From NCBI GenBank assembly GCA_027484655.1, contig JAIXSM010000052.1:1-64000 (forward strand): 64,000 bases of DNA, given 5' to 3'. Origin of the DNA: Hyphomicrobiales bacterium (GTDB lineage Bacteria > Pseudomonadota > Alphaproteobacteria > Rhizobiales > Beijerinckiaceae). Below, one piece after another: positions 40,211 to 52,631 of the stretch (position 1 is the stretch's first letter; every line of letters begins with the position of its first letter). The notes under the pieces are model-generated. The model ran no database searches and was not told where the DNA came from. It saw nothing but the letters and a program-made list of their open reading frames with translations. The translations under genes and the position numbers were made by a program.

Positions 40211-42535
40211 TCAGCCGCCGCCCCCTGTCCATTGCGCCCAGAGCCCGGAGAATGGCCGGAAGACGAAGCGCACCTTGTGCTCGCCGGGGGGAACCTCAAC
40301 TGCGCGGAAAATAGCGTTGGCGCGCAGGATCGGCGCTGGTTTGCCGTCGATCTCGGCCCGCCACCACGGATGCCAGACGTCGTTGAGCACCACCCAGCCG
40401 CCCTCTCGGGACGATGCGTCGATGACGACTTCGGTGTTGGCGTAGGAGGCGATGCGCGCGCGACCCGCCGGGCGCGCCTTGCTCTCGGGCGCATCCTCCA
40501 GCAGCACGGTGTTGCGGAAGTCCGTCGCAGGCCACACGCCGGTGGCGATCATCGCCTCAAAATTCGCCGGCCGCGCTTGCGTCGCGAACAGGACGCGGGG
40601 CAGAGCGCGGGGATTCTCGTAGAGGTACGCCGCCCGGTTGCGGCCCGCCTCGATCAGGTCTCCCGGACGAAGCGATTTGTCGAGTTGCTGCGCCGGCACG
40701 CCGGTCACCACCCACCGCACGCCGAGCAGGTCGGCCATGGGCGACGCGTAGCGCGCGAACAGGGGCGCGAACCGCCGCTGGTCGGGAACCGCCACATGGT
40801 CGATGGCGCCGGTGGCCTGCGCGAACCAGCGCAGCCGCAGCGGGTTGTAGCCCAGCCAGTGGTCGAAGCCGTGGGACAGGGACACGTTGGGCCAGTGGAA
40901 GTCCACCGCCGCCATCTCCACCCGGTCGCGCCGGTCCGGCCCTGCGGGGCCCGCCAGCTTGTCCTTCAGCAGCAGCAGCGTGGGGTCGCGTCCGTCGGGT
41001 TTCAGGGCCTCGTAGATCGTCGGGCTCAGCGCGGTCGATTCGTTGGGTCCGTTGTTCACCCGCAGATCGAGGAACAGCAGGGCGCCCAGCGCTACGATGG
41101 CCAGCGTGCGCTTGTGATGAAGGTGCGGGAGGTAGATGAGCAGCGCCGCGGCGGCGACGATCCATCCCGCAGACATGGCCAGCGCCGGCAGCGCGTGGCC
41201 GAGGCGATCTTTGGCGAAGGCGACCGCAACGCAGGCGATGAAGGCGGCCGCCAGCAGCGCGAGGCCCGCCCACAGGGCGCGCGGCGAGCGGCCAAAGCCT
41301 GCGTCCGCGAGTCGATGCACGAGGAATCCGGCGATGATCGCCAGCATGGCGCCCAGCGGGAACGTGGCGTCCGCGGGGCGGCGGAACATATCGGCGCCGG
41401 GCAGGTGGAAAGCCCACGCGAAGAACGGCGTGTACTTGCCCAGCCCAAACAGCAGCAGGACGAGGGCGGCGATGACGTAAGGTCTGATCTCGCGCGCCAG
41501 CAGGCCCCCGCGCGCCACGCCCAGCATGAGGAAGGCCGCCAGCGGCAGGGCGCCCATGTAGACGTTCGCCATGTTGCGGGCGAGCGCCAGCTTCTGGTCG
41601 CCCCAGAAGTCCGGGTTCGGCGGTCCCCAGTAATCCTTCAGCGGTCCGTCGGTTCCAAACAGGTTGGCGGAAACGAAGGTGTAGAGCGCGCCCGGATGCA
41701 GCGATCCGCCCGCCGCGCCTTCAAAATCGATGGCCGGACGGTTGGAGTGGGCCGCAAGCGCCAGCGTCAGCGCAACGGGCAGGGCGACGGTCAGCAGCCC
41801 GCAGACGGCGCCCGCGCCAAGCGGGGCGATGAGCGTGCGCAGGTTGTCCCAGCGCCACCCGCCCTCCAGCGCCCGCCACAGGCCAAGGAACGCCAGAAGC
41901 CAGACGCCGAACCAGGCGACCTGATCGCGGCCGATCACCATGAGCCCGGCGGCGAGGCCGGCCAGCGCGCCCCACAGGATCGAGCGCCGGTCGACCGCCC
42001 GCAGCAGCAGCCACAGGGCGATGGCGAACCACGCAAGACTCAGGATCTGGCCGATGTGCTGGATGCGCCATGCGGCGGAGGCGCCCAACGCGAAGGCGAG
42101 CGCCGCCACCACGGCGCCTTCGGGCCGCCAGCCATGGTCGCGGAACATCGCGATGATGGCGAGGCCGCCAGCGGCGATCATGCAGAAGGCGACCGCGTCA
42201 AACGCCGCGAACGAGGGGGCCTTCTCGAAGAAAGCGAGCAGCAGGTAGGGCGGCGAGAAGATCAGCGACTGCGGGTCGGCGATTTGCGGGTGTCCGCCAA
42301 AAACATGGGGCGCCCAGAACGGCGACTGGCCGCTGTGGAGCGCGTTCGCGAGAAAGACAAGCTGGGGGTAGAAATGCGCCTTGGCGTCCCACGGGATCGT
42401 CACCGAGCCCGTGATCCACGGCCACGCGAACAGGAACGAGGCGGCCAGAAAAACGGCGACGGCCGGCGCATAGCCCGGCCGTCTTCCGTGCGGAACCTGG
42501 TTGTGAGGCCTGGGCTTATTCCTTGACTGCGCCAT
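40211..42535 (-). CDS. YfhO-like polytopic membrane protein
   Basis: 774 residues with about a dozen membrane spans and a periplasmic C-terminal domain of about 250 residues. The first loop ITIPWDAKAHFYPQ then HSGQSPFWAPHVFGGHPQIADPQSLIFSPPYLLLA is the recognised signature of YfhO-type proteins, which add sugars (for example galactose to lipoteichoic acid in Gram-positives) from a polyprenyl donor. Here the acceptor is unknown. The C-terminal domain ends with the TSFGLGDE-like segment GGWVVLNDVWHPWWRAEIDGKPAPI found in this group. Its first 20 bases overlap the 3' end of ribA. Confidence 0.82.
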   Translation of the reverse strand: MAQSRNKPRPHNQVPHGRRPGYAPAVAVFLAASFLFAWPWITGSVTIPWDAKAHFYPQLVFLANALHSGQSPFWAPHVFGGHPQIADPQSLIFSPPYLLLAFFEKAPSFAAFDAVAFCMIAAGGLAIIAMFRDHGWRPEGAVVAALAFALGASAAWRIQHIGQILSLAWFAIALWLLLRAVDRRSILWGALAGLAAGLMVIGRDQVAWFGVWLLAFLGLWRALEGGWRWDNLRTLIAPLGAGAVCGLLTVALPVALTLALAAHSNRPAIDFEGAAGGSLHPGALYTFVSANLFGTDGPLKDYWGPPNPDFWGDQKLALARNMANVYMGALPLAAFLMLGVARGGLLAREIRPYVIAALVLLLFGLGKYTPFFAWAFHLPGADMFRRPADATFPLGAMLAIIAGFLVHRLADAGFGRSPRALWAGLALLAAAFIACVAVAFAKDRLGHALPALAMSAGWIVAAAALLIYLPHLHHKRTLAIVALGALLFLDLRVNNGPNESTALSPTIYEALKPDGRDPTLLLLKDKLAGPAGPDRRDRVEMAAVDFHWPNVSLSHGFDHWLGYNPLRLRWFAQATGAIDHVAVPDQRRFAPLFARYASPMADLLGVRWVVTGVPAQQLDKSLRPGDLIEAGRNRAAYLYENPRALPRVLFATQARPANFEAMIATGVWPATDFRNTVLLEDAPESKARPAGRARIASYANTEVVIDASSREGGWVVLNDVWHPWWRAEIDGKPAPILRANAIFRAVEVPPGEHKVRFVFRPFSGLWAQWTGGGG

Positions 42536-43640
42536 AAGCTGTGAGCTGGTCCGCGTCGATCAGATGACCGGCCCGGTCCCGCTTGGAGGCGAGATACCGG
42601 ACGTTGTGGTCGTTAAGCCGCCCAATTACCCGCTGATCCGCGACGATGTCGAGCCCGGCGCCGCGCAGCGCCGCGATCTTGATCGGATTGTTCGTCATCA
42701 CGCGCACGCTGGCGACGCCAAGCTGCTTCAGCATTTCGGCTGCGAAATCAAAGCCGCGCTGGTCGTGGTCGAAGCCCAGCACCTCGTCGGCGTCGTAGGT
42801 GTCAAACCCCTGTGATTGCAGCTTGTAGGCGCGCATCTTGTTGGACAGGCCGTTGCCGCGGCCTTCCTGATCGAGATACAGCAGCACGCCGCCGCCGTTC
42901 TGGGCCATGAACTTCGCGGTGTCGCGCAGCTGGTCGCCGCAGTCGCACTTGAGGCTGCCGAACAGGTCGCCGGTGAGGCAGGCCGAATGCAGCCGCACCC
43001 CCACCGGGCGCGACAGATCCGGCTTGCCGATGATGATCGCCACCTGATCGCGCAGGCCCTCTCCGCCGCGGAAGACCACGAACTCCGTGTCCTGAGCGCC
43101 TTCCAGCGGCACCGGCGCGCGTCCAACGATCTTCAGGTCCACCACGCTGCGGCCCCGGTACTCGAAGATGCTCCCCGCCTCCGCCTCAAGCAGGCCGCTC
43201 GTCGCCGCCAGTTCCCCGGTGACGGGCGCGACCACGAGGGCGGGGAGGATGAGGGCGAGTCGCGCCAGCTCCAGCGCGGCCTTGTCCAGCGTGTCGATGG
43301 ACGCAACCGGCGCGTCGAAACGGGCTCCGACCTCAAGCGCCAGCGTCGTGATGCGGGCAAGGTCAATCTTCGGCAGGGCGAACTGGCCCGGCTCGGTGCG
43401 CTCCATGCCCAGGCGACGCAGGCGCGGGGCGGGAAGCACGAGCCGCGCGCGCCCGTCCGCCAGCGCCTCAAGGCGCGCGGCCATCGCTGCGTCGAGCGCC
43501 TCGACGCCAATAACCATGATGAGGGTGTCGTCGGACCGGATGAGCGCGGGACGGCCGGATCGCAGCTCGGCGATCGCACGTTCCACAGCAATTTGGCTCG
43601 CTCCGCCGTCCGCTAATAGAATAGTCTTGTTATCCGACAC
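42516..43640 (-). CDS. ribA: GTP cyclohydrolase II
   Basis: 374 residues, GTG start at 43640 with GAGGGTC. The enzyme opens GTP to 2,5-diamino-6-ribosylamino-pyrimidinone 5'-phosphate. The N-terminal 170 residues form the RibB-like domain common in alphaproteobacterial RibA and do not look catalytic. The GCH II domain has the zinc Cys triad (HSACLTGDLFGSLKCDCG), DQEGRGNGL in place of the more usual RGIGL, and KMRAYKLQ with the Tyr that specifies full ring opening. The terminal segment VMTNNPIKIAALRGAGLDIV is standard. It is divergent from a stand-alone RibD-type reductase gene across 112 bases. Confidence 0.93.
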   Translation of the reverse strand: MSDNKTILLADGGASQIAVERAIAELRSGRPALIRSDDTLIMVIGVEALDAAMAARLEALADGRARLVLPAPRLRRLGMERTEPGQFALPKIDLARITTLALEVGARFDAPVASIDTLDKAALELARLALILPALVVAPVTGELAATSGLLEAEAGSIFEYRGRSVVDLKIVGRAPVPLEGAQDTEFVVFRGGEGLRDQVAIIIGKPDLSRPVGVRLHSACLTGDLFGSLKCDCGDQLRDTAKFMAQNGGGVLLYLDQEGRGNGLSNKMRAYKLQSQGFDTYDADEVLGFDHDQRGFDFAAEMLKQLGVASVRVMTNNPIKIAALRGAGLDIVADQRVIGRLNDHNVRYLASKRDRAGHLIDADQLTAYGAVKE

Positions 43641-43752
43641 GCGACCCTCAACTGACTTGGGCGGCTGGATCCGACCGAGGACAAGGTCCGTAAGTAATGA
43701 CGCCTCGTGACGTTTCCATAACGCAGATTGGGAATTTTATCCAGGAGATCCC

Positions 43753-44490
43753 ATGGGACCGGTTCAGGACGCCCGGGCAGGGAATGAACGCGCCGCCATG
43801 GCAGATGTTTCGCCTACGTACGAGGACATCATCGGATCACTGCGGCGCGCGCCGCCGGACCGCCCGTTCGTGGTCGGGCAGCTGGGTCAGTCGCTCGACG
43901 GACGCATCGCCACCGTCACGGGATCCTCGCGCTATATCAACGGCTCGTGCGCGCTGGATCACCTCCATGTCCTGCGCGCCAATGTGGACGCCGTGCTGGT
44001 GGGTGCGGGCACTGTCGTCGCCGACGATCCGCAGCTCAACGTGCGGCGCACTGCCGGCCGCAGCCCTGCGCGGGTTGTGCTGGATCCGTCCGGGCGCACG
44101 CCCCCGCACGGGCGCTGGCTCGCCGACGACGGCGCTCGCAGGATCGTGATCTGCGCCCGGGACATCCCCCGCCCGCCCGGCTGCGACGAGGTGATCGTGA
44201 TCGAGCGCGTCGAGGGGCGCGTCGATCCCCACCGCGTTTGCGCCGCGCTGTTCGAACGGGGCCTGCGTCGCATACTGGTCGAAGGCGGGGCGCGCACCAC
44301 TTCCACGTTCATCGAGGCGCGCGCGATGGATCGTCTGCACGTGCTCGTCGCGCCGGTCATCATCGGCTCCGGCAAGTCGGGGCTGGAGTTGCCGCCGGTG
44401 CGCGAGGTGCAGGATGCGCTGCGCCCGCCCGTGCGCGTGTGGCCGTTCGCCGACGGGGATGTCCTGTTCGATTGCGACCTGCGCGGCTGA
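43753..44490 (+). CDS. Stand-alone RibD C-terminal (reductase) domain protein
   Basis: 245 residues, ATG at 43753 after CAGGAGATCCC. The NADPH-dependent reductase fold that reduces the ribosyl side chain of the diaminopyrimidine is recognised by GQLGQSLDGRIATVTGSSRYINGS, DAVLVGAGTVVADDPQLNVR and RRILVEGGARTTSTFIEARAMDRLHVLVAPVIIGSG. The CMP/dCMP-type deaminase domain that normally precedes it in RibD is absent. It is divergent from ribA, and followed by cytochrome b561 after 19 bases. A pathway in which reduction precedes deamination, as in archaea and fungi, is possible, but a different substrate is equally plausible. Confidence 0.9.
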   Translation: MGPVQDARAGNERAAMADVSPTYEDIIGSLRRAPPDRPFVVGQLGQSLDGRIATVTGSSRYINGSCALDHLHVLRANVDAVLVGAGTVVADDPQLNVRRTAGRSPARVVLDPSGRTPPHGRWLADDGARRIVICARDIPRPPGCDEVIVIERVEGRVDPHRVCAALFERGLRRILVEGGARTTSTFIEARAMDRLHVLVAPVIIGSGKSGLELPPVREVQDALRPPVRVWPFADGDVLFDCDLRG

Positions 44491-44509
44491 CGACACCGTG
44501 GAGCATGCC

Positions 44510-45073
44510 ATGAGCACCATCGAAGCGCCTGCAAGACCGCTGCACTACGCCCCCTGGAGCAAGACGCTGCACTGGGTCAGCGCGCTCATGATCCTGTTCA
44601 TCATCCCTGCGGGGATCGTGATGGCGAACATCGGGCCGGGCAAACTGCAGAACACGCTCTATGACCTGCACCGTTCGTTCGGCGTCGTTGTGTTTGTGCT
44701 GGCGTTGGCGCGGGTGTTGGTGCGCATCGCCCGCGGCGCCCCGGGGCCTGCGGCGGGGCTCACACGGTTTGAGCGGATCCTGTCCACCAGCGTGCATCAC
44801 ACGCTGTATGCGCTGCTCATCGCCATGCCGCTGCTCGGCTGGCTCATGACATCGGCCTACCGGGTGGATGTGTCCGTGTTCGGTCTGTTCACGCTCCCGC
44901 ATGTGGTCGCCCAGGATGAGGCGACGTACAAGGTTCTCCAGCGCCTGCATTTCATCGGCGGGCTCGCGATGACGCTGCTCGTGCTTGCGCACCTCGCAGG
45001 CGTCATCAAGCACACGTTCATCAGCCGCGACACGGTGCTCTGGCGGATGCTGCCCAGGAGCTGGGGCGGCTGA
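44510..45073 (+). CDS. Cytochrome b561
   Basis: 187 residues, ATG at 44510 after GTGGAG. Four hydrophobic helices carry likely haem-ligand His residues: LHWVSALMI, YDLHRSFGV, SVHHTLYALLIAMPLLGWLM and QRLHFIGGLAM. Cytochrome b561 proteins transfer electrons from quinol or ascorbate-like donors across the inner membrane. It is encoded 19 bases after the RibD-type reductase on the same strand, so a redox link to that pathway is possible (inference). Six bases separate it from the convergent methyltransferase gene. Confidence 0.93.
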   Translation: MSTIEAPARPLHYAPWSKTLHWVSALMILFIIPAGIVMANIGPGKLQNTLYDLHRSFGVVVFVLALARVLVRIARGAPGPAAGLTRFERILSTSVHHTLYALLIAMPLLGWLMTSAYRVDVSVFGLFTLPHVVAQDEATYKVLQRLHFIGGLAMTLLVLAHLAGVIKHTFISRDTVLWRMLPRSWGG

Positions 45074-45079
45074 GAAGCC

Positions 45080-45919
45080 TCACGCGGGCGCTGCGAAGAT
45101 GTCCTCGTGGCCGATCTCGCAGGCGCTCGCGGCAAGGCGGGCGTCGAGCCAGTCGTCGATAGCGGCCCCGGGGACGCGCCCTGTTTCCCGCACGGCGCTC
45201 GCTGCGCCGCGGGCGAGTTCGCTCATCAGAACGCGGTCCGACGCATCCATCGACCATGGCGAGGCTGCGCTGGCCACGCCGTAGCCGACCGCTCGCAACG
45301 CGCGCTCAAGGGCTGCTGCGGCGAGCGGCCCGGCGGCGGGGCCAAAACCCTTGTCGCTGTGCTGGTGCGCGTGGAACGCCGCGAGCATGTCCCCGTCAGC
45401 GGCGTGGGGCGGCGACCAGCGCTCATGGCCGTTGTAGGTGAGCGTCGTGTAGAGCGGCGCGCGGCGGGCGGCCAGCGCGGCGCAGAAGCCGCCCATCCAA
45501 TCTTCCGACACGAGATCGAAAAAAGCCGCGGCGGTGACGAGATCCGCCGGCCGCTCCAGCGCGTGCTCTACATGGCGGGCGAGATCGGCCTGCAACACGC
45601 GCACTTCGATGCGCCGTGCGCCGCGGTGAATGACGAGCGCGTCGCCTTCGTCACGGGCGCGCTCACCCCATGCGGCAAGGCGTGCGCGGGCGTGGGCGAG
45701 CAGCGCCTCATCCCAGTCCACCAGCGTCCAGCGCTGGACGGGCGCCGCGATATGGTCGGCCAGCGCGCGCAGGTTTGACCCCGAGCCGCAGCCCAGATCA
45801 ACGATCTCGACGCTCTCCCTCCCGGCGAGCGCCGCGACCGCCCTGTCGCGCACGTCCGCCGCAATGGAGCGATGATCCACGGGCTCGCGCAACGCCAGCC
45901 AGTCCGCTGAAAAACTCAT
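45080..45919 (-). CDS. Class I SAM-dependent methyltransferase
   Basis: 279 residues. The SAM-binding motif I is VEIVDLGCGSGSNLRALADHI, with motif II around WTLVDWDEALLAHARARL and a post-motif at ADLVTAAAFFDLVSEDWM. The N terminus MSFSADWLALREPVDHRSIAADV seems specific. The start overlaps the stop of the glycosyltransferase gene (ATGA at 45919), so it is the last member of a tightly coupled unit with the pyruvoyltetrahydropterin-synthase-like gene and GT4. Its target is probably the product of those enzymes (inference). Confidence 0.88.
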   Translation of the reverse strand: MSFSADWLALREPVDHRSIAADVRDRAVAALAGRESVEIVDLGCGSGSNLRALADHIAAPVQRWTLVDWDEALLAHARARLAAWGERARDEGDALVIHRGARRIEVRVLQADLARHVEHALERPADLVTAAAFFDLVSEDWMGGFCAALAARRAPLYTTLTYNGHERWSPPHAADGDMLAAFHAHQHSDKGFGPAAGPLAAAALERALRAVGYGVASAASPWSMDASDRVLMSELARGAASAVRETGRVPGAAIDDWLDARLAASACEIGHEDIFAAPA

Positions 45920-46983
45920 ATGCTCGCCTTTCCGCCAGCAGTAAGCAGTACGCGGGCCACGGTCGCCGCCGTCGCCTCCCACGTTGGAAGTTGAAGCGCG
46001 GACGCCCGCGCGCCGGCGCCAAGCCTTGCGCGCAGGGCAGGGTCGGCGATGGCGTTGCGCAGGGCATTTTGCAGCGCCGCGACGTTGTCGGAGGGAACCT
46101 TGAGGGCCGCCGCATCCGGCGCCGTCTGTCCCGCCGCGCCGCCGGTCGTCGATACGAGCGGCAGGCCGCGGGCCAGCGCCTCTGTCAGCACCATGCCGTA
46201 GCCTTCGTAACGGGAAGCCAGCACGAAAAGATCGGCGCGGTCGTAGAGCGCGGCCAGCGTGCTGTCGTCCACCGCGCCGGCGATGGTGATGCGGCCCGCA
46301 AGTCCTGCCGCCTCGATCTGCGCCCGCAGGGCGTCCGCCGTCGCCGGCGCGCGGTCGAGAGCGCCGGCGATGGTCAGCGTCCAGTCGAGATCGATCAGGC
46401 CTGCGAGCGCATCGACCAGTACATCGTAGCCCTTGCGCGGCACGATGGACCCAACCGCCAGCAGGGCGACCCCCGGCCCGCCGGAGCCCTTCGCGAGCGA
46501 TGCGCGGTCCACGCCGGGCTCGGCCACGGTCATGCTCTCAAACCGCACGCCAAAGTCGCGCGCCAGCGTCGCCGCCGTCGCCTCGCTGCTGACAATGACG
46601 TGCGCGCTGACGCCCAGCGCGGCGATTTCGCTGTCGCGCAGGGCGTTAGCGTGGTCCGGCGCGAGCCCGGCCTCCAGCGCCAGCGGGTGGTGGCAGAGCG
46701 CGACAATGGGCGCGCGCACATCCCGCGCCATGGCGGCGGGGAAGGCGCCCCACGCCAGTCCGTCGATCAGCAGCACCTCATCGGGCGCCACGCTCTCCAG
46801 CGCGCGGCGCGTGGCGTCGAGATCGTGCGCGGAGGGAAACGGATAGGAGCCCGGCAGCGCAAGCACGCGCACGTCGATCCCGAACTGCGGCAGCAGCGCC
46901 AGCACGCGCCGGTCGTACCCGTAGCCCCCAGTGGGGAGCGACAGGTCGCCGGGGATCGCGAACGCCGCGCGCAGGCGGCTCAC
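45916..46983 (-). CDS. Glycosyltransferase family 4
   Basis: 355 residues from the GTG at 46983, which overlaps the stop of the upstream gene (GTGA); an earlier start at 47004 is less likely. The GT-B fold shows the donor-binding E-x7-E motif as EGYGMVLTE, preceded by the nucleotide region VGSIVPRKGYDVLVDAL and followed by LPLVSTTGGAAGQT. The N-terminal block AFAIPGDLSLPTGGYGYDRRVLALL fits GT4. It is translationally coupled to the pterin-synthase-like gene before it and to the methyltransferase after it, which suggests a small soluble acceptor, not a polymer. Confidence 0.9.
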   Translation of the reverse strand: MSRLRAAFAIPGDLSLPTGGYGYDRRVLALLPQFGIDVRVLALPGSYPFPSAHDLDATRRALESVAPDEVLLIDGLAWGAFPAAMARDVRAPIVALCHHPLALEAGLAPDHANALRDSEIAALGVSAHVIVSSEATAATLARDFGVRFESMTVAEPGVDRASLAKGSGGPGVALLAVGSIVPRKGYDVLVDALAGLIDLDWTLTIAGALDRAPATADALRAQIEAAGLAGRITIAGAVDDSTLAALYDRADLFVLASRYEGYGMVLTEALARGLPLVSTTGGAAGQTAPDAAALKVPSDNVAALQNALRNAIADPALRARLGAGARASALQLPTWEATAATVARVLLTAGGKASI

Positions 46984-47381
46984 GCCACGGGGCCCTCGAA
47001 CCACGCCCGCGCCACGTGGGATTCGTGCAGGGTGACGCGGATTTTCACGATGCCCTCGCCGCCCGGCCCCAGCGCGCCGGCGCGGGCCGCGTCGCGCATG
47101 GCGTCGAAGATGTGGCGGGAGAGAAACTCCGTCGTGGTCTGCTTGCCGGCGAACTGGGGCAGGTCATCGAGGTTCTGGTAGTTCAGGGGGCCCAGCGTCG
47201 CCTTGAGCGCGTCATGGGCGCGGCCGATGTCCACCACCACGGCGTCGGCGGTCAGCTCTTCCCGGAAGAACGCTACATCGACGACGAACGTCGCGCCATG
47301 CAGCTTCTGCGCGGGGCCGAACAACTCGCCCTTGAACGAATGGGCGATCATGATGTGCTCGCGCACCTCGACGGCGTACAT
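46980..47381 (-). CDS. 6-pyruvoyltetrahydropterin/6-carboxytetrahydropterin synthase-like protein, active site altered
   Basis: 133 residues, ATG at 47381 after CCAGGAGTTCCC. The T-fold architecture is clear: IMIAHSFKGE, KLHGATFVVDVAF, VVVDIGRAHDALK, LNYQNLDDLPQF, QTTTEFLSRHIFDAM and VTLHESHVARAWF. But key residues differ from QueD and PTPS enzymes. The zinc box LHGHxF reads LHGATF, so the third zinc His is Ala30. The catalytic Cys before that box is missing (GPAQK). The LDHHxLN catalytic His segment reads LNYQNLDD. H14, H28 and E120 remain. It is therefore unlikely to do standard QueD chemistry and may catalyse a different reaction in the same gene unit. Confidence 0.85.
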   Translation of the reverse strand: MYAVEVREHIMIAHSFKGELFGPAQKLHGATFVVDVAFFREELTADAVVVDIGRAHDALKATLGPLNYQNLDDLPQFAGKQTTTEFLSRHIFDAMRDAARAGALGPGGEGIVKIRVTLHESHVARAWFEGPVA

Positions 47382-47770
47382 GGGAACTCCTGGGAATGGG
47401 AAGAGAGGCCGCGCCTTACGTGGCGCGAGCCGGGGCGCTTGGCAAGGCGGGCATTTGGACCGCGGGCGTCCCCGCCCGCAAGATGGCTGCGCGCGAGGCC
47501 CCGGATCGCCTTCGGCGTCCGGGGAGGTGGATGCGCTGCGTTCGACAGAAGGTGGAGGCTCTGGCTCGCATTTCCGTCATCCGCGGGCTTGACCCGCGGA
47601 TCCATCCTCGCAGCCGAGTGTATGGATCCCCGGATCAAGTCCGGGGATGACGCTGCAGGATGATAGGCGCTTTCGGGACCGCGGGCGTCCCCGCCCGCAA
47701 GATGGCTGCGCGTGAGGCCCCGGATCGCCTTCGGCGTCCGGGGAGGTGGCGCGCGGTCCAGTTGGACCAC
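47382..47770. repeat. Gene-free repeat tract between the pterin-synthase-like and MDR genes
   Basis: A 73-bp direct repeat occurs at 47458-47530 and 47677-47749 with one mismatch. It starts GACCGCGGGCGTCCCCGCCC, contains AAGATGGCTGCGCG, and ends with the CCGGATCGCCTTCGGCGTCC palindrome core. Between the copies is an inverted pair built on GTCATCCGCGGGCTTGACC and its near complement ending GGGGATGAC. The same cores occur near 1.0 and 26.7 kb. No gene is seen. Confidence 0.85.
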
Positions 47771-48784
47771 TCAATACCTCACCACGACCCCCAACCCCTT
47801 GGCGCTGGGCGCAAAGACCTCCGCAGCCCGTGCGCAAAAATCCTCGAACGCGATGTCCGTGTCCAGCAGCGCATCGAGGCGGTCGTCGCGCAACAGCTCC
47901 ATGGCCTTGGCCATGCGCCGCGCGTAATCCCAGCGCGGGCGCCGCGAGGGCGACACCTGCCCCACCTGCGTTGACATGAGGTGCAGGCGCTTCGAGTGGA
48001 AGGCGCCGCCCAGCGGCGTCGGCACGGGCGCGGCGCCGTGCCAGCTCATCTCCACCACCCGCGCCTCGAACCCCGCGCAGGCGAGCGCCAGGGCGAGGCC
48101 CGGAGCGCTGGCGCTGGCGTGGAACACCACGTCGGCCTCAGCGCCTGCCACGTCCCCGGGCGCAGCGAACGGGACGCCGATCTGCGCCGCCGGCTGCGCG
48201 CGGTCCGGGTTCACGTCCACCAGCGTCACGTCAGCGCCGGGCAGGCGCGCGCACAGATACGCGGTGAGCATGCCGACGATCCCTGCGCCCACCACGACGA
48301 TCCGATCGCCCGGACCGGCGCCGGAATCCCACACCGCGTTCAGGGCGGTTTCCATGTTGGCGGCGAGCACGGCGCGCCGCGGCGGCAAGCCCTCGGGCAG
48401 GGGGCGCAGCGTGGCGGCGTCGGCCACAAATCCGGTCTGGTGCGGGTGGAGCGCGAAGACAGGGCGACCGATCAGATCCGGCGGCCCGCCTTCAGTGATC
48501 CCGACCGCGCAATAGCCGTATTTGATGGGGAAAGAAAATTCGCCTTCCTGCATCGGGCATCGCATGCGGGCGTATTCGGACGGAGGAACCGCCCCTGTGA
48601 ACACAAGACGCTCCGTCCCCCTGCTCACGCCTGTAAAGAGAGTTCTGACAAAGGCTTGTCCCTCACGCAGGGCGGGCGTCTCCGCCTCGCGCACGCCGCC
48701 CCGTCCGGCCGCTTCCCACCACAGCGCCCGGACGGTCCGGCTGGACGCGGGGCTTAATCCTTCTATCTTCGCGTCCATCGCCAT
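47771..48784 (-). CDS. MDR-superfamily (zinc-type alcohol dehydrogenase-like) oxidoreductase
   Basis: 337 residues from the ATG at 48784 (a second ATG two codons on). The Rossmann motif is VVVGAGIVGMLTAYLCARL, and the acidic end of the next strand (LVDVNPDR) suggests NAD(H). The catalytic-zinc Cys position of classical enzymes is replaced by LFTGVSRGTERLVF; the SRGTE motif is shared with BchC-type and related MDR proteins. No structural-zinc Cys cluster is seen. Its stop is 389 bases upstream of the pterin-synthase-like gene, separated by a repeat tract, on the same strand. Probably acts in the same pathway (inference). Confidence 0.85.
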   Translation of the reverse strand: MAMDAKIEGLSPASSRTVRALWWEAAGRGGVREAETPALREGQAFVRTLFTGVSRGTERLVFTGAVPPSEYARMRCPMQEGEFSFPIKYGYCAVGITEGGPPDLIGRPVFALHPHQTGFVADAATLRPLPEGLPPRRAVLAANMETALNAVWDSGAGPGDRIVVVGAGIVGMLTAYLCARLPGADVTLVDVNPDRAQPAAQIGVPFAAPGDVAGAEADVVFHASASAPGLALALACAGFEARVVEMSWHGAAPVPTPLGGAFHSKRLHLMSTQVGQVSPSRRPRWDYARRMAKAMELLRDDRLDALLDTDIAFEDFCARAAEVFAPSAKGLGVVVRY

Positions 48785-48856: not shown

Positions 48857-50662
48857 ATGACTTCCCCCGATTCGGACACAACGCCCGCGGGCCTGCAAAG
48901 CCGCGCGACCCTCTTCCGCCGCCGCCTCATCGTGGCGGGCCTCAACATTGGCACGTATGTGGGGCTCCTGTGGTGGCTGTCGAGCATCCTCGCGGTCTCG
49001 GGCTGGAGCGTCATCGATGTGGCGATCTTCGTCTGCTTCGCCATCGCGGCGCCATGGGGCGTGCTGGGCGTGTGGAACGCGCTGATCGGCGTGTGGCTGC
49101 TGCATGGCGGGCCGGACGCCCGCGACGCCGTGGCGCCGTTCGCCCGGGCGGGAGACACAGACGCGCCCGTGACGGCGCAGACCGCTGTTCTCATGACGAT
49201 CCGCAACGAGGATCCCGCCCGCGCCTTCGCGCGCCTCGCCGCCGTGAAGGATAGCCTCGACGCCACAGGGCAGGGCGCGGCGTTCGGCTACTTTGTGCTG
49301 TCCGACACCAGCGACGACGACGTGGCGCTGGCGGAGCAGGCGGCTTTTGAGGCGTGGCGCGCGAAGGCTGACCCGTCGGCCCGCCTGCATTATCGCCGCC
49401 GCACGACCAACGAAGGCTTCAAGGCCGGCAACGTGCGCGACTTCTGCGAGCGCTGGGGCGCGGACTACGAGTTCATGCTGCCGCTGGACGCCGACAGCCT
49501 GATGGATGGCGCAACCATCCTGCGCATGGCGCGCATCGGGCAGGCGTATCCACGGCTTGGCATCCTGCAGAGCCTGGTGGTGGGCGCGCCGAGCCGCTCC
49601 GCCTTCGCGCGCATCTTCCAGTTCGGCATGCGCCACGGCATGCGGCCCTACACCATGGGCAGCGCCTGGTGGGCGGGCGACTGCGGCCCGTTCTGGGGCC
49701 ATAACGCGCTGGTGCGCATCAGGCCGTTCGTGGAGCATTGCCACCTGCCGGTTCTGCCGGGCGGGCCGCCGCTGGGCGGGCAGATCATGTCTCATGACCA
49801 GGTGGAGGCGGTGCTCATGCGCCGCGCCGGCTTTGAGGCCCGCGTACTCCCCGAAGAGGTGGGAAGCTGGGAGGAGAATCCCCCGACGCTGCTTGAGTTT
49901 ACCCGCCGTGATCTGCGCTGGTGCCAGGGCAACATGCAGTACTTCCGCCTGCTCGGGCTGAAGGGCATCCAGCCCATGAGCCGGTTCCAGCTCATCTGGG
50001 CGATCTCGATGTTCATCGGCCTGCCGGCGTGGACGGCGATCATCGCGCTCGCCGCCATCAAGCCGCTGGATGGGGAGCCGACTGCGCTCTTTCCCGCCGC
50101 TTCCGCGCTGGGGCTCTACAGCGTCTTCATGCTGTTCTATCTGGCGCCGAAGCTCGCTGGTTTCGTCGATATCGCGCTCACCCGCGGCGCGCTGGCTCGT
50201 TACGGCGGCGGCGCCCGGTTCGCGGCGGGCGCCGTGACCGAGATCCTGTTCTCGTTCCTCATTTCAGCGGCCACGACCCTGCGCACCAGCCTGTTCATGG
50301 TGGGGCTGTTGTTCGGCAAGGCCGTGGTGTGGAACGGTCAGGCGCGCGACGCCCATGCGCTGTCATGGGGCACCGCCGCGCGGGGCATGTGGCCGCAGAC
50401 GGCGTTCGGCGTCGTTTTGCTCGCCTTTGCGCTGGCGCTGGCGCCGGGTGTGATCTTGTGGTCGCTGCCATTGACGCTGGGCTATTTCCTCGCCATTCCC
50501 TTCGCGGTGGCCACCGCCGACCCGCGTTTCGGGGCGTTTCTCGCCCGCACGGGTCTGTGCGCCATCCCCGAGGAAATCGAGACGCCCGCCATCATCGCGA
50601 CCCTTTTGCGGGGCAGCAATAATGAGCCGGGCTCCGCCCCCGAACTCACAGAGGTTGCATGA
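48857..50662 (+). CDS. opgH: Glucans biosynthesis glucosyltransferase OpgH/MdoH
   Basis: 601 residues. OpgH polymerises UDP-glucose into the beta-glucan backbone of osmoregulated periplasmic glucans and exports it. N-terminal membrane helices are followed by the GT2 domain: VLMTIRNEDPARAFARL, the DxD-like PLDADSLMDG, and the R-x-x-R-W box RRDLRWCQGNMQYF. Several helices follow, and the C-terminal region GNGQARDAHALSWG-like is typical. Shorter than the E. coli protein (about 850) because the cytoplasmic N-terminal extension is missing. It shares a 72-bp divergent promoter region with the MDR gene and is coupled (ATGA) to the next gene. Confidence 0.93.
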   Translation: MTSPDSDTTPAGLQSRATLFRRRLIVAGLNIGTYVGLLWWLSSILAVSGWSVIDVAIFVCFAIAAPWGVLGVWNALIGVWLLHGGPDARDAVAPFARAGDTDAPVTAQTAVLMTIRNEDPARAFARLAAVKDSLDATGQGAAFGYFVLSDTSDDDVALAEQAAFEAWRAKADPSARLHYRRRTTNEGFKAGNVRDFCERWGADYEFMLPLDADSLMDGATILRMARIGQAYPRLGILQSLVVGAPSRSAFARIFQFGMRHGMRPYTMGSAWWAGDCGPFWGHNALVRIRPFVEHCHLPVLPGGPPLGGQIMSHDQVEAVLMRRAGFEARVLPEEVGSWEENPPTLLEFTRRDLRWCQGNMQYFRLLGLKGIQPMSRFQLIWAISMFIGLPAWTAIIALAAIKPLDGEPTALFPAASALGLYSVFMLFYLAPKLAGFVDIALTRGALARYGGGARFAAGAVTEILFSFLISAATTLRTSLFMVGLLFGKAVVWNGQARDAHALSWGTAARGMWPQTAFGVVLLAFALALAPGVILWSLPLTLGYFLAIPFAVATADPRFGAFLARTGLCAIPEEIETPAIIATLLRGSNNEPGSAPELTEVA

Positions 50663-51672
50663 AGCCGATAGCCTCCCTCCTCGCCGCTCTCGCCATTACG
50701 GCCGCCTCCGCCGCCGCGCTGGCCCAACCCGCCATTCATTCGCTGCCTGCCAAGGCCTTCGATCCTGACGAGATCGCCGTCGCTGTCCAGAACCGCAGCG
50801 AGCCGGTGCTCTGCGCGGAAAAGGACAACATCCAGATCGATTTCGCCTCGCCCACGGTGAAGAGCTTCCGCGTGCAGGCGGTGCATCCCGCCTACATCGG
50901 CACGATTGGCGTTGACCGCTATCTGCCCGACTTCACGGCCTGCGACATGAGCAGCGACCCGGTTGTCGCCACGTCCGTGAAAAAGACCGTGCGCCGCACG
51001 ATTTACGAGACGCCCGACTTCCAGCTCGTCGCCTACACGTACCCCACGTTCTGGCGCCCGGCGAACACGCCCGTGCGCATCATCGATCCAGAGAACAAGA
51101 TCGACCAGACGTTCAAGGAAATCCACCTCATGCAGGTGTGGACGCTCCATCGCGAGCGCGCCGAGGAGGTTCTCGTCGTCTATCCGCCGGACGGATACTG
51201 GCGTGCGCGGCCGCTGCCCTTCGCCGACATGCGCTGGACGGCGTACGGCTCGTCCTTCCTTGTCGGCCCTGTGGAGATGCAGGAGCGCCCCATCGTCGAC
51301 ATCAAGCTGATTACCTACAACGCGAAGGACAAAACCTTCACGCTCGACTTCGCCCGCGGCGGTTCGGCGAAGCTGTCCATTCAGGCGCTCGATCAGGAGC
51401 ACATGGCGATTGACGTGGCGCTTGAGGGCGCCATCCCGCGCAACCTGCCGTTCGCCTCGCTGCGCTCCATGTACATCACCGAGACCAACAACGACGCCGC
51501 CCGCGTCGCGTGGAAGCCCAGGGGCGCGAACCGCTGGGGCGAGGCGCATGTGATGGACTTCAAGACCGCGGAAGCCACGGAGATGTGGGTGGGTCGCACT
51601 GTCGCCTCCAAGCACAACACCTCCGCGCCCGACATGGTGCTCGGCCGGTTCAAGGCTGAACCGAAGAAGTGA
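50659..51672 (+). CDS. Conserved-looking periplasmic protein of unknown function in opgH operon
   Basis: 337 residues. Signal peptide MKPIASLLAALAITAASAAALA, then a beta-rich soluble domain. Two Cys (VLCAEKDN and FTACDMSS) lie in the first third. Repeated blocks of aromatic and charged residues, AYTYPTFWRPANTPVRIID and DGYWRARPLPFADMRWTAYGSSF, look like a carbohydrate-binding surface, but this is only an impression. I do not recognise the family, and it is not OpgG or OpgD, whose motifs are absent. Its start overlaps the opgH stop (ATGA) and its stop overlaps the next start (GTGA), so all three are made together and it probably helps glucan export or modification. Confidence 0.75.
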   Translation: MKPIASLLAALAITAASAAALAQPAIHSLPAKAFDPDEIAVAVQNRSEPVLCAEKDNIQIDFASPTVKSFRVQAVHPAYIGTIGVDRYLPDFTACDMSSDPVVATSVKKTVRRTIYETPDFQLVAYTYPTFWRPANTPVRIIDPENKIDQTFKEIHLMQVWTLHRERAEEVLVVYPPDGYWRARPLPFADMRWTAYGSSFLVGPVEMQERPIVDIKLITYNAKDKTFTLDFARGGSAKLSIQALDQEHMAIDVALEGAIPRNLPFASLRSMYITETNNDAARVAWKPRGANRWGEAHVMDFKTAEATEMWVGRTVASKHNTSAPDMVLGRFKAEPKK

Positions 51673-52631
51673 GTTCATCCGCGCGGCGCATACCCTTGAT
51701 CGACGCCGTTCGCGGCGTCGCTCTCGTGGGCATGTCCGCTTACCATCTGGTCTGGGATCTCGCGTTCTACCACCTGATCCCGCGCGAGATCTTTCTGGAT
51801 CCGCGCTTTCAGGCGTTCGGCCATGGCGTGGCGATCTCGTTCCTGACGCTGGCGGGGGTGAGCCTCGCGCTCGCCTCCCGCGACGGGTTTGACGCGAGGG
51901 CGTTCGCCCGCAGGCTGGCCATTGTGGGCGGGGCCGCCGCGCTCGTGTCCCTTGGCACATATGTCTATCTGCCCGAGGCGTTCGTCAGCTTCGGCATCCT
52001 TCATTGCATTGTCGCCGCGAGCCTGCTGGCGGCGCCCTTCGTGCGCGGGCCATGGATCGTTCCGCTCGCGGTCGGCGTCGCGCTTGTCATCACGCCGTCT
52101 GTCCTGCGCTCCGAGGCGTTCAACGGGTCGAACTGGTGGCTGGGCGTGGGGGTCGCAGAGCCACGCACCCTCGATTGGCGCCCGCTGCTGCCATGGAGCG
52201 GGTTCACGCTCATCGGCCTTGCGCTCGCCCGGGCGTGGCTCGCGCGCGGGCTGCCTCAAACGATGGTGGACTGGCGCCCTCGCGGAGCGGCGGGGCGGGC
52301 GCTCGCGTTCGCCGGCGGGCGTTCGCTGCTTGTCTATCTCGTGCATCAGCCGGTGCTGATCGGGCTCGTTTTCCTCGCCGCGGCGGTGATCGGTCCTGTC
52401 GCTGGCGTTGCGGAGGCGGAAGCGCGCTTCCGGGGCGCATGCGCGCAGCAGTGCGCCGCCGCCGGGCCTGATCTTGCATGGTGTGAGCGCGCCTGCGCCT
52501 GCGTCGAGCAGGAGGCCAAGCGCGAAAGCCTGTGGCGCCAGACGCTCGAAAACAAGTTCACGGCTCAGCAGCGGGCGCGGTTCGACGACATTGCCCGCGC
52601 ATGCCTGCGGCCCCACGCCTCGCCGCCCTGA
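51669..52631 (+). CDS. DUF1624 acyltransferase-like membrane protein with Cys-rich C-terminal tail
   Basis: 320 residues from the GTG at 51669, overlapping the previous stop. The N-terminal RIPLIDAVRGVALVGMSAYHLVWDLAFYHLIP is diagnostic of DUF1624, and seven or so hydrophobic helices follow up to about residue 240. The last 75 residues form an unusual tail, EARFRGACAQQCAAAGPDLAWCERACACVEQEAKRE, with six Cys in about 30 residues, which should face the periplasm. Family members are related to membrane acyltransferases; in this operon it may add a succinyl or similar group to the glucan, the role of OpgC elsewhere (inference). Confidence 0.85.
   Translation: MSSSARRIPLIDAVRGVALVGMSAYHLVWDLAFYHLIPREIFLDPRFQAFGHGVAISFLTLAGVSLALASRDGFDARAFARRLAIVGGAAALVSLGTYVYLPEAFVSFGILHCIVAASLLAAPFVRGPWIVPLAVGVALVITPSVLRSEAFNGSNWWLGVGVAEPRTLDWRPLLPWSGFTLIGLALARAWLARGLPQTMVDWRPRGAAGRALAFAGGRSLLVYLVHQPVLIGLVFLAAAVIGPVAGVAEAEARFRGACAQQCAAAGPDLAWCERACACVEQEAKRESLWRQTLENKFTAQQRARFDDIARACLRPHASPP

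Follow-up and report, generated by a model that had tools for sequence, protein, structure and literature searches.

A conserved gene set around a non-canonical PTPS-like protein in Hyphomicrobiales: a candidate pathway to a pterin-type small molecule

We describe here a gene set centred on a PTPS-like T-fold protein in the genome of a Hyphomicrobiales bacterium (assembly GCA_027484655.1, contig JAIXSM010000052.1, positions 1 to 64,000; this 64,000-nucleotide stretch is hereafter the window). The genes for the PTPS-like protein, an MDR dehydrogenase, a GT4-family glycosyltransferase (GT4) and a methyltransferase (MT), which we refer to as the core, lie beside ribA, encoding GTP cyclohydrolase II (GCHII), a stand-alone RibD_C-type reductase (RED) and a cytochrome b561 (Table 1). 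This gene set is a conserved system, more than a chance neighbourhood, and we favour, with moderate confidence, the reading that it specifies an undescribed, horizontally moving pathway to a small molecule built on a 2-amino-4-oxo ring of the pterin type. The component families are known; their combination and presumed product are undescribed within the open-licence literature searched, which contained no description of the gene set (subscription journals and preprints were outside that scope).

Versions of the cluster occur in other Pseudomonadota and in Actinomycetota, and, if the favoured reading is correct, bacteria of at least two phyla share a route to a pterin-type metabolite undescribed within the same literature. 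It would also mean that the early steps of riboflavin synthesis, in their archaeal order, supply a second pathway in bacteria, that the PTPS-fold family typified by SCO6650, labelled 6-carboxytetrahydropterin synthase in most of the plasmid records found, has a function, and that the enzymes and metabolite class to look for can be named.

Conservation, co-inheritance and gene fusion

The neighbourhood was compared in the 80 best of 161 confirmed related loci and, after adding plasmid records and further genomes, in 134 loci carrying the PTPS-like gene, a set which excludes one locus without a PTPS-like ortholog (L135) and six short ones (L001, L082-L085 and L095). In both sets many loci are cut short by contig ends; the 134 were not de-replicated, and their neighbour genes were called using profiles made from these same loci. 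Among the 80 loci, we found GT4 in 78, MT in 71, MDR in 65, an MdoH-like glycosyltransferase in 60, cytochrome b561 in 53, ribA in 43, RED in 42 and a YfhO-like membrane protein in 37. The larger set gave a similar picture (GT4 126, MDR 114, MT 112, MdoH-like 85, RED 77, cytochrome b561 74, ribA 68, YfhO-like 46), with a CDP-alcohol transferase in 20 loci, a flippase-like protein in 16 and a creatininase in 10. All four core genes were found in 96 of the 134 loci, on the same strand in every one and in the order MDR-PTPS-GT4-MT in 93. An earlier note on this DNA, made from the sequence alone, had called for such a neighbourhood comparison, and these counts bear out that the genes are conserved together.

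Co-inheritance was evaluated in 99 genomes of the window's family and in 398 genomes of its phylum from outside its class, with score limits chosen after gaps in the match lists had been seen. Within the family, the PTPS-like gene is present in 52 genomes, and an MDR ortholog (at least 300 bits; gap from 303 to 135) in exactly those 52 and in none of the 47 others. RED orthologs (at least 190 bits; gap from 199 to 89) occur in 31 family genomes, 30 of them PTPS-like-positive. At the phylum scale, 74 of the 398 genomes matched the PTPS-like protein at E 0.001, and we counted the 27 with at least 50% identity, the others being weak matches of at most 33% identity. RED was found in 24 of these 27 and in 0/371 others, at a limit of at least 150 bits in a search restricted to E 1e-30 (lowest counted match 151 bits; two of the 371 had weaker, uncounted matches of 113-115 bits). 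Eight genera included both PTPS-like-positive and PTPS-like-negative genomes, and there MDR tracked the PTPS-like gene in 8/8 and RED in 6/8.

A RED gene that is not adjacent to the PTPS-like gene still forms one block with cytochrome b561 and ribA in 6/6 genomes examined, a count which excludes a seventh genome (G080) with RED about 10 kb off. The exception within the family, genome G064 (86% complete), keeps RED, ribA, the YfhO-like gene and the c8/c10 flanking genes described below (L190, G064:C1:52000-71500). No PTPS-like or MDR match was obtained in this genome, and GT4, MT, cytochrome b561 and the MdoH-like gene were not found in the fetched stretch, a pattern that would be expected if the block from the MdoH-like gene to cytochrome b561 had been lost as one unit.

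In the window, the reading frames of the PTPS-like gene and GT4 overlap at GTGA and those of GT4 and MT at ATGA; both 4-base overlaps, which the earlier note had read, were confirmed in the sequence. Six loci (L114-L119), all from Pseudomonadota that do not belong to the window's class, encode GT4 and MT in one frame of 644-655 aa, with the GT4 match in the first part of the fused protein and the MT match in the second. Plasmids of Streptomyces, Microbacterium, Agrobacterium, Neorhizobium, Palleronia and Thiodictyon (a gammaproteobacterium) also carry versions of the set, the cluster of Methylosinus trichosporium OB3b is plasmid-borne as well, and we propose that the cluster moves horizontally.

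Active-site residues of the PTPS-like protein, RED and RibA

For Escherichia coli QueD and its PTPS relatives, we take Cys27 to be catalytic, His33 to be a zinc ligand and Glu110 to grip the pterin. The PTPS-like protein shares the fold and the His16, His31 and Glu110 equivalents with this family (retained in 134/134 sequences), and differs from it in its neighbours and in that the positions of the catalytic Cys and the third zinc His are both Ala in 134/134 (motif A-Q-x-x-H-G-A); the Asp70 position is mostly Asn (0.84) and the His71 position mostly Tyr (0.92). It scores below the NCBIfam cut-offs for QueD (32.4 vs. 89.25 bits) and PTPS (24.9 vs. 125.5 bits). Because the catalytic Cys and a zinc His are replaced, canonical PTPS or QueD chemistry is unlikely, in line with the earlier note, which had found no match of these genes to the usual folate and queuosine operons, and the invariant Glu would retain the grip on the ring.

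Of the solved structures, that of SCO6650 from Streptomyces coelicolor (PDB 3d7j) matches best (E 8.4e-44 across residues 1-129 of 133), and SCO6650 shares HGA for HGH and the kept Glu. The protein is said in its structure paper to have no zinc, no catalytic triad and no PTPS activity, and a pterin-compatible pocket. The earlier note's interpretation is partly supported, by the joint conservation and co-inheritance of the genes and by the GT4-MT fusions; part of it had been noticed before by others, as this solved Streptomyces homologue shows. Excerpts of PMC5041015, a review of 2016, give CxxxHGH, CxxxxxHGH or ExxHGH as the motifs of QueD/PTPS-I, II and III, none of which fits a protein with HGA in place of HGH. 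The same excerpts list within COG0720 a subfamily PTPS-V of "still unclear" function, likewise a PTPS-fold group outside types I, II and III, to which the PTPS-like protein may belong.

RED carries Gln at the position of E. coli RibD Lys152 in 76 of 77 sequences (His in the other), whereas the RibD of the window's own genome has Lys there. Its nearest solved structures (6p8c and 2azn) are diaminopyrimidine-type reductases, and its median length of 264 aa is too short for a fused deaminase. According to the parts of PMC3631187 available, Lys at this position gives a preference for the 2-oxo substrate and Thr one for the 2-amino substrate, the T35K change in yeast RIB7 shifts the preference between the two, and the residue is Asn in archaea and Thr in fungi. 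RED thus lacks the Lys of bacterial RibD reductases, which use the 2-oxo substrate, and as a stand-alone domain with a non-Lys residue resembles the archaeal and fungal diaminopyrimidine reductases. Since Gln stands where bacterial RibD has Lys, RED most likely acts on the 2-amino substrate before deamination, which would leave a 2-amino, pterin-type ring rather than a flavin-type one. Of the "pterin- or flavin-like" product first suggested for this locus, the pterin part is accordingly favoured by two residues, the Gln of RED and the Glu of the PTPS-like protein, and the flavin part is not.

The window RibA keeps three zinc Cys and the equivalents of Tyr105, Asp126 and Arg128, which we take to be the functional positions of GCHII, and so qualifies as a GTP cyclohydrolase II. 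The only other GCHII domain found in its genome belongs to a RibBA (L145, G000:C36:31010-31498) that is without all three zinc Cys, making the window RibA the only intact GCHII found there. In three other cluster-bearing Hyphomicrobiales genomes (L179, L180 and L181), the best GCHII match, the only one that the search gave there, is also without the three zinc Cys in the alignment. In the four Pseudomonadota outside Alphaproteobacteria for which ribA was found in the cluster (L112 and L115-L117), the cluster RibA is one of three GCHII matches; of the other two, one is stronger and RibA-like, and one is weaker and lies in a ~400-aa frame, probably a RibBA. In a midpoint-rooted tree, their cluster RibA groups with the alphaproteobacterial cluster RibA, and their RibA-like match groups with E. 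coli RibA, apart from the cluster copy.

Proposed pathway and competing explanations

For the substrates, the order of steps, the product and its role, we infer the following scheme. RibA would open GTP to 2,5-diamino-6-ribosylamino-4(3H)-pyrimidinone 5'-phosphate, in some lineages together with a creatininase-family formamidase, and RED would turn the ribosyl into a ribityl chain ahead of any deamination, so that the 2-amino group is kept. The PTPS-like protein, with the ring held by its conserved Glu and with neither catalytic Cys nor full zinc site, would then carry out a different step from its relatives, perhaps ring closure or a side-chain rearrangement. MDR may oxidise or reduce a side-chain hydroxyl, after which GT4 would add a sugar and MT a methyl group, consecutively. 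Here cytochrome b561, the MdoH-like protein and the YfhO-like protein could handle, export or reduce and re-oxidise the product, with the CDP-alcohol transferase and flippase-like protein in the membrane role elsewhere; such genes hint at a product that leaves the cell or acts within the membrane.

It is tempting to speculate further that the product, an N8-ribityl pterin bearing a sugar and a methyl group, is a new kind of redox cofactor, anchored in the membrane or exported, and a pterin-based counterpart of a quinone, although we regard this as a long shot. The CDP-alcohol transferase might then join ribityl phosphate to a phospholipid, as for polyol phosphates, and the LPG_synthase_TM-type protein might flip the lipid-linked pterin; in the form bearing cytochrome b561, electrons might be exchanged between the pterin and this membrane cytochrome.

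Besides the PTPS-fold relatives above, two known systems come close to the proposed scheme. The sugar-bearing pterins of cyanobacteria and green sulfur bacteria, which would be of the same product class, are made by way of GTP cyclohydrolase I and a canonical PTPS-II at the outset, whereas the PTPS-like protein here is non-canonical. The riboflavin steps in archaeal and fungal order (GTP cyclohydrolase, the formamidase ArfB/BrbF, RED) are echoed by the type of RED, which suggests reduction before deamination in the cluster too, and by the creatininase-family gene of some clusters; in contrast, no deaminase, lumazine synthase or riboflavin synthase is seen alongside, and the route would lead into PTPS-like, MDR, GT4 and MT.

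Other explanations account for part of these observations. GT4 and MT, together with either the MdoH-like and YfhO-like proteins or the CDP-alcohol transferase and the flippase-like protein, could build a methylated surface glycan or glycolipid, with the PTPS-like protein recruited to a sugar or nucleotide-sugar and RibA and RED nearby just for riboflavin supply. Such a pathway would explain the numerous membrane and glycosyl-transfer neighbours, the proximity of GT4 to polysaccharide and phosphatidylinositol-mannoside-type enzymes and the absence of RED from 22 of the 52 positive family genomes. It fits poorly with RED orthologs that are nearly confined to PTPS-like-positive genomes even when unlinked (30/31 in the family and 24/24 in the phylum at 150 bits or more), with an extra RibA that accompanies the cluster into other Pseudomonadota, and with a pterin-anchoring Glu that is invariant, and we consider it improbable. 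A branch of flavin metabolism, in which riboflavin synthesis is enhanced or diverted through ribA, RED and creatininase and the other genes glycosylate, methylate and export a flavin, appears somewhat less probable still. The window RibA being the only intact GCHII found in its genome speaks for it, and the portion of PMC9478397 available discusses modules for the secretion of flavins in Sinorhizobium. Yet no ribB, ribE or ribH product, as a riboflavin operon would show with ribA or ribD, was found among the annotated neighbours (unannotated loci were not searched), and RED has no space for a fused deaminase and carries Gln rather than the Lys linked to flavin precursors. We know of no role of the PTPS fold with flavins. 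Finally, an ordinary queuosine or folate QueD/PTPS gene lying beside unrelated genes is suggested by the Pfam PTPS match and by the RefSeq product name "6-carboxytetrahydropterin synthase" (a label that 14 of 20 plasmid records retrieved carry); we rejected it as highly improbable on the active-site residues and the scores under the cut-offs, and its supposedly unrelated neighbours are conserved, with no que or fol gene product among those annotated.

Several observations weigh against the pterin-type pathway itself. Since no other intact GCHII was found in the genome, the window RibA must also feed riboflavin; the earlier note had counted ribA among the genes of the pathway, and we rejected the gene as a sign of a dedicated pathway in this organism. 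RED is missing from the 22 positive family genomes mentioned above and is therefore not indispensable, or RibD replaces it; the pathway could presumably run either way. No GT4 was found near the PTPS-like gene in L093 and L105 and no MT in L102 and L103, and in three Streptomyces plasmid loci (L088, L136 and L138) the PTPS-like gene has no other core gene nearby. Because the counted genomes are mutually related, Fisher values for the co-occurrence overstate independence. The involvement of creatininase is also less regular than it might be: only two cluster RibAs, both from Streptomyces, have Met at the Tyr105 position, no ribA was found in four of the creatininase loci, and more distant creatininase-family homologues did not complement in the experiments of PMC9478397, as far as the available part of that paper goes.

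The lone Streptomyces plasmid genes adjoin cupin, MBL-fold and BTAD-regulator genes, with MEKHLA-domain genes in two of the three loci, and perhaps represent a second use of the PTPS-like family.

A Met in place of Tyr105 makes GCHII halt at the formyl intermediate, where SCO6655, a GCHII of S. coelicolor, also stops. We rejected a strict pairing of Met-type GCHII with creatininase: among 68 cluster RibAs, two are Met-type with creatininase, four Tyr-type with and 60 Tyr-type without it (the remaining two have a gap and a Val, in sequences cut or leaving the family there), and a simple pairing fails on the Tyr-type clusters with creatininase and the creatininase loci without ribA. In two Streptomyces clusters, L087 and L137, a CDP-alcohol transferase and a flippase-like protein accompany creatininase and a Met-type RibA; the window's cluster has none of the four. 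In Sinorhizobium, the intermediate made by GTP cyclohydrolase loses its formyl group to a creatininase-like enzyme, according to the same part of PMC9478397; formamidase activity of the cluster creatininase is only a guess because distant homologues failed to complement. Two creatininase-family genes lie elsewhere in the window's genome.

Gene layout, lineage variants and flanking features

All seven genes of the set (ribA, RED, cytochrome b561, MT, GT4, PTPS-like and MDR) are open reading frames with the family matches expected from the earlier note and at the place it states (Table 1). Two details refine that note: MDR, which shares the strand of the PTPS-like gene and lies upstream of it as stated there, is 389 bp distant, and ribA, on the minus strand, is divergent to RED and cytochrome b561. 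Structure models of MDR (pLDDT 90.0) and MT, compared with the PDB, gave generic alcohol/polyol dehydrogenase and small-molecule methyltransferase folds, with no hint of substrate.

Table 1. Genes of the set and its surroundings in the window, with neighbours from two Rhodobacterales loci.
Feature	Position	Strand	Evidence and remarks
YfhO-like membrane protein, downstream of ribA	40211..42535	-	PF09586 32.2 bits, cut-off 28.5, short stretch
ribA, GTP cyclohydrolase II, long form, 374 aa	42516..43640	-	NCBIfam NF006456 496 bits, cut-off 464
RED, stand-alone RibD_C-type reductase	43753..44490	+	PF01872 133 bits; later ATG may be true start
Cytochrome b561	44510..45073	+	PF01292
MT, class I SAM methyltransferase	45080..45919	-	Pfam Methyltransf_25/12; model pLDDT 96.9
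GT4-family glycosyltransferase	45916..46983	-	PF00534 98.7 bits
PTPS-like T-fold protein, non-canonical active site	46980..47381	-	PF01242 71.7 bits, gathering threshold 22.4
MDR dehydrogenase	47771..48784	-	Weak BchC match; alcohol/polyol dehydrogenase fold
MdoH-like membrane glycosyltransferase, divergent neighbour	48857..50662	+	NCBIfam NF003963 928 bits, cut-off 884
PfkB-type kinase / inositol-monophosphatase-family neighbours	L093 6834-7754; L094 10997-11887 and 5171-5974

The MdoH-like gene is probably an accessory of the Hyphomicrobiales form, and the YfhO-like gene is possibly one as well. On a Neorhizobium plasmid, the MdoH-like gene immediately precedes MDR and shares its strand. Outside Hyphomicrobiales, a CDP-alcohol transferase (PF01066) and a membrane protein matching PF03706 are frequent in the cluster. 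Among the matches listed, cluster CDP-alcohol transferases score 228-322 bits with the cluster profile; of the four CDP-alcohol transferases in the window's own genome, three score 27-37 bits and one gave no match, so that no ortholog was seen among them. Rhodobacterales forms have PfkB-type kinases nearby and, in Palleronia, an inositol-monophosphatase-family gene, which could possibly provide kinase and phosphatase steps.

An Rfam scan of positions 36000-58000 of the window gave no match reaching the gathering threshold. Beyond the MdoH-like gene, positions 50659-52631 encode a conserved protein without Pfam match (c8) and an HGSNAT_cat membrane protein (c10), found in 56 and 30 of the 134 loci, respectively. 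Part of the 389 bp that separate the PTPS-like gene from MDR is taken up by two 74-nt copies, 99% identical, at 47457-47530 and 47676-47749, possibly a dispersed repeat.

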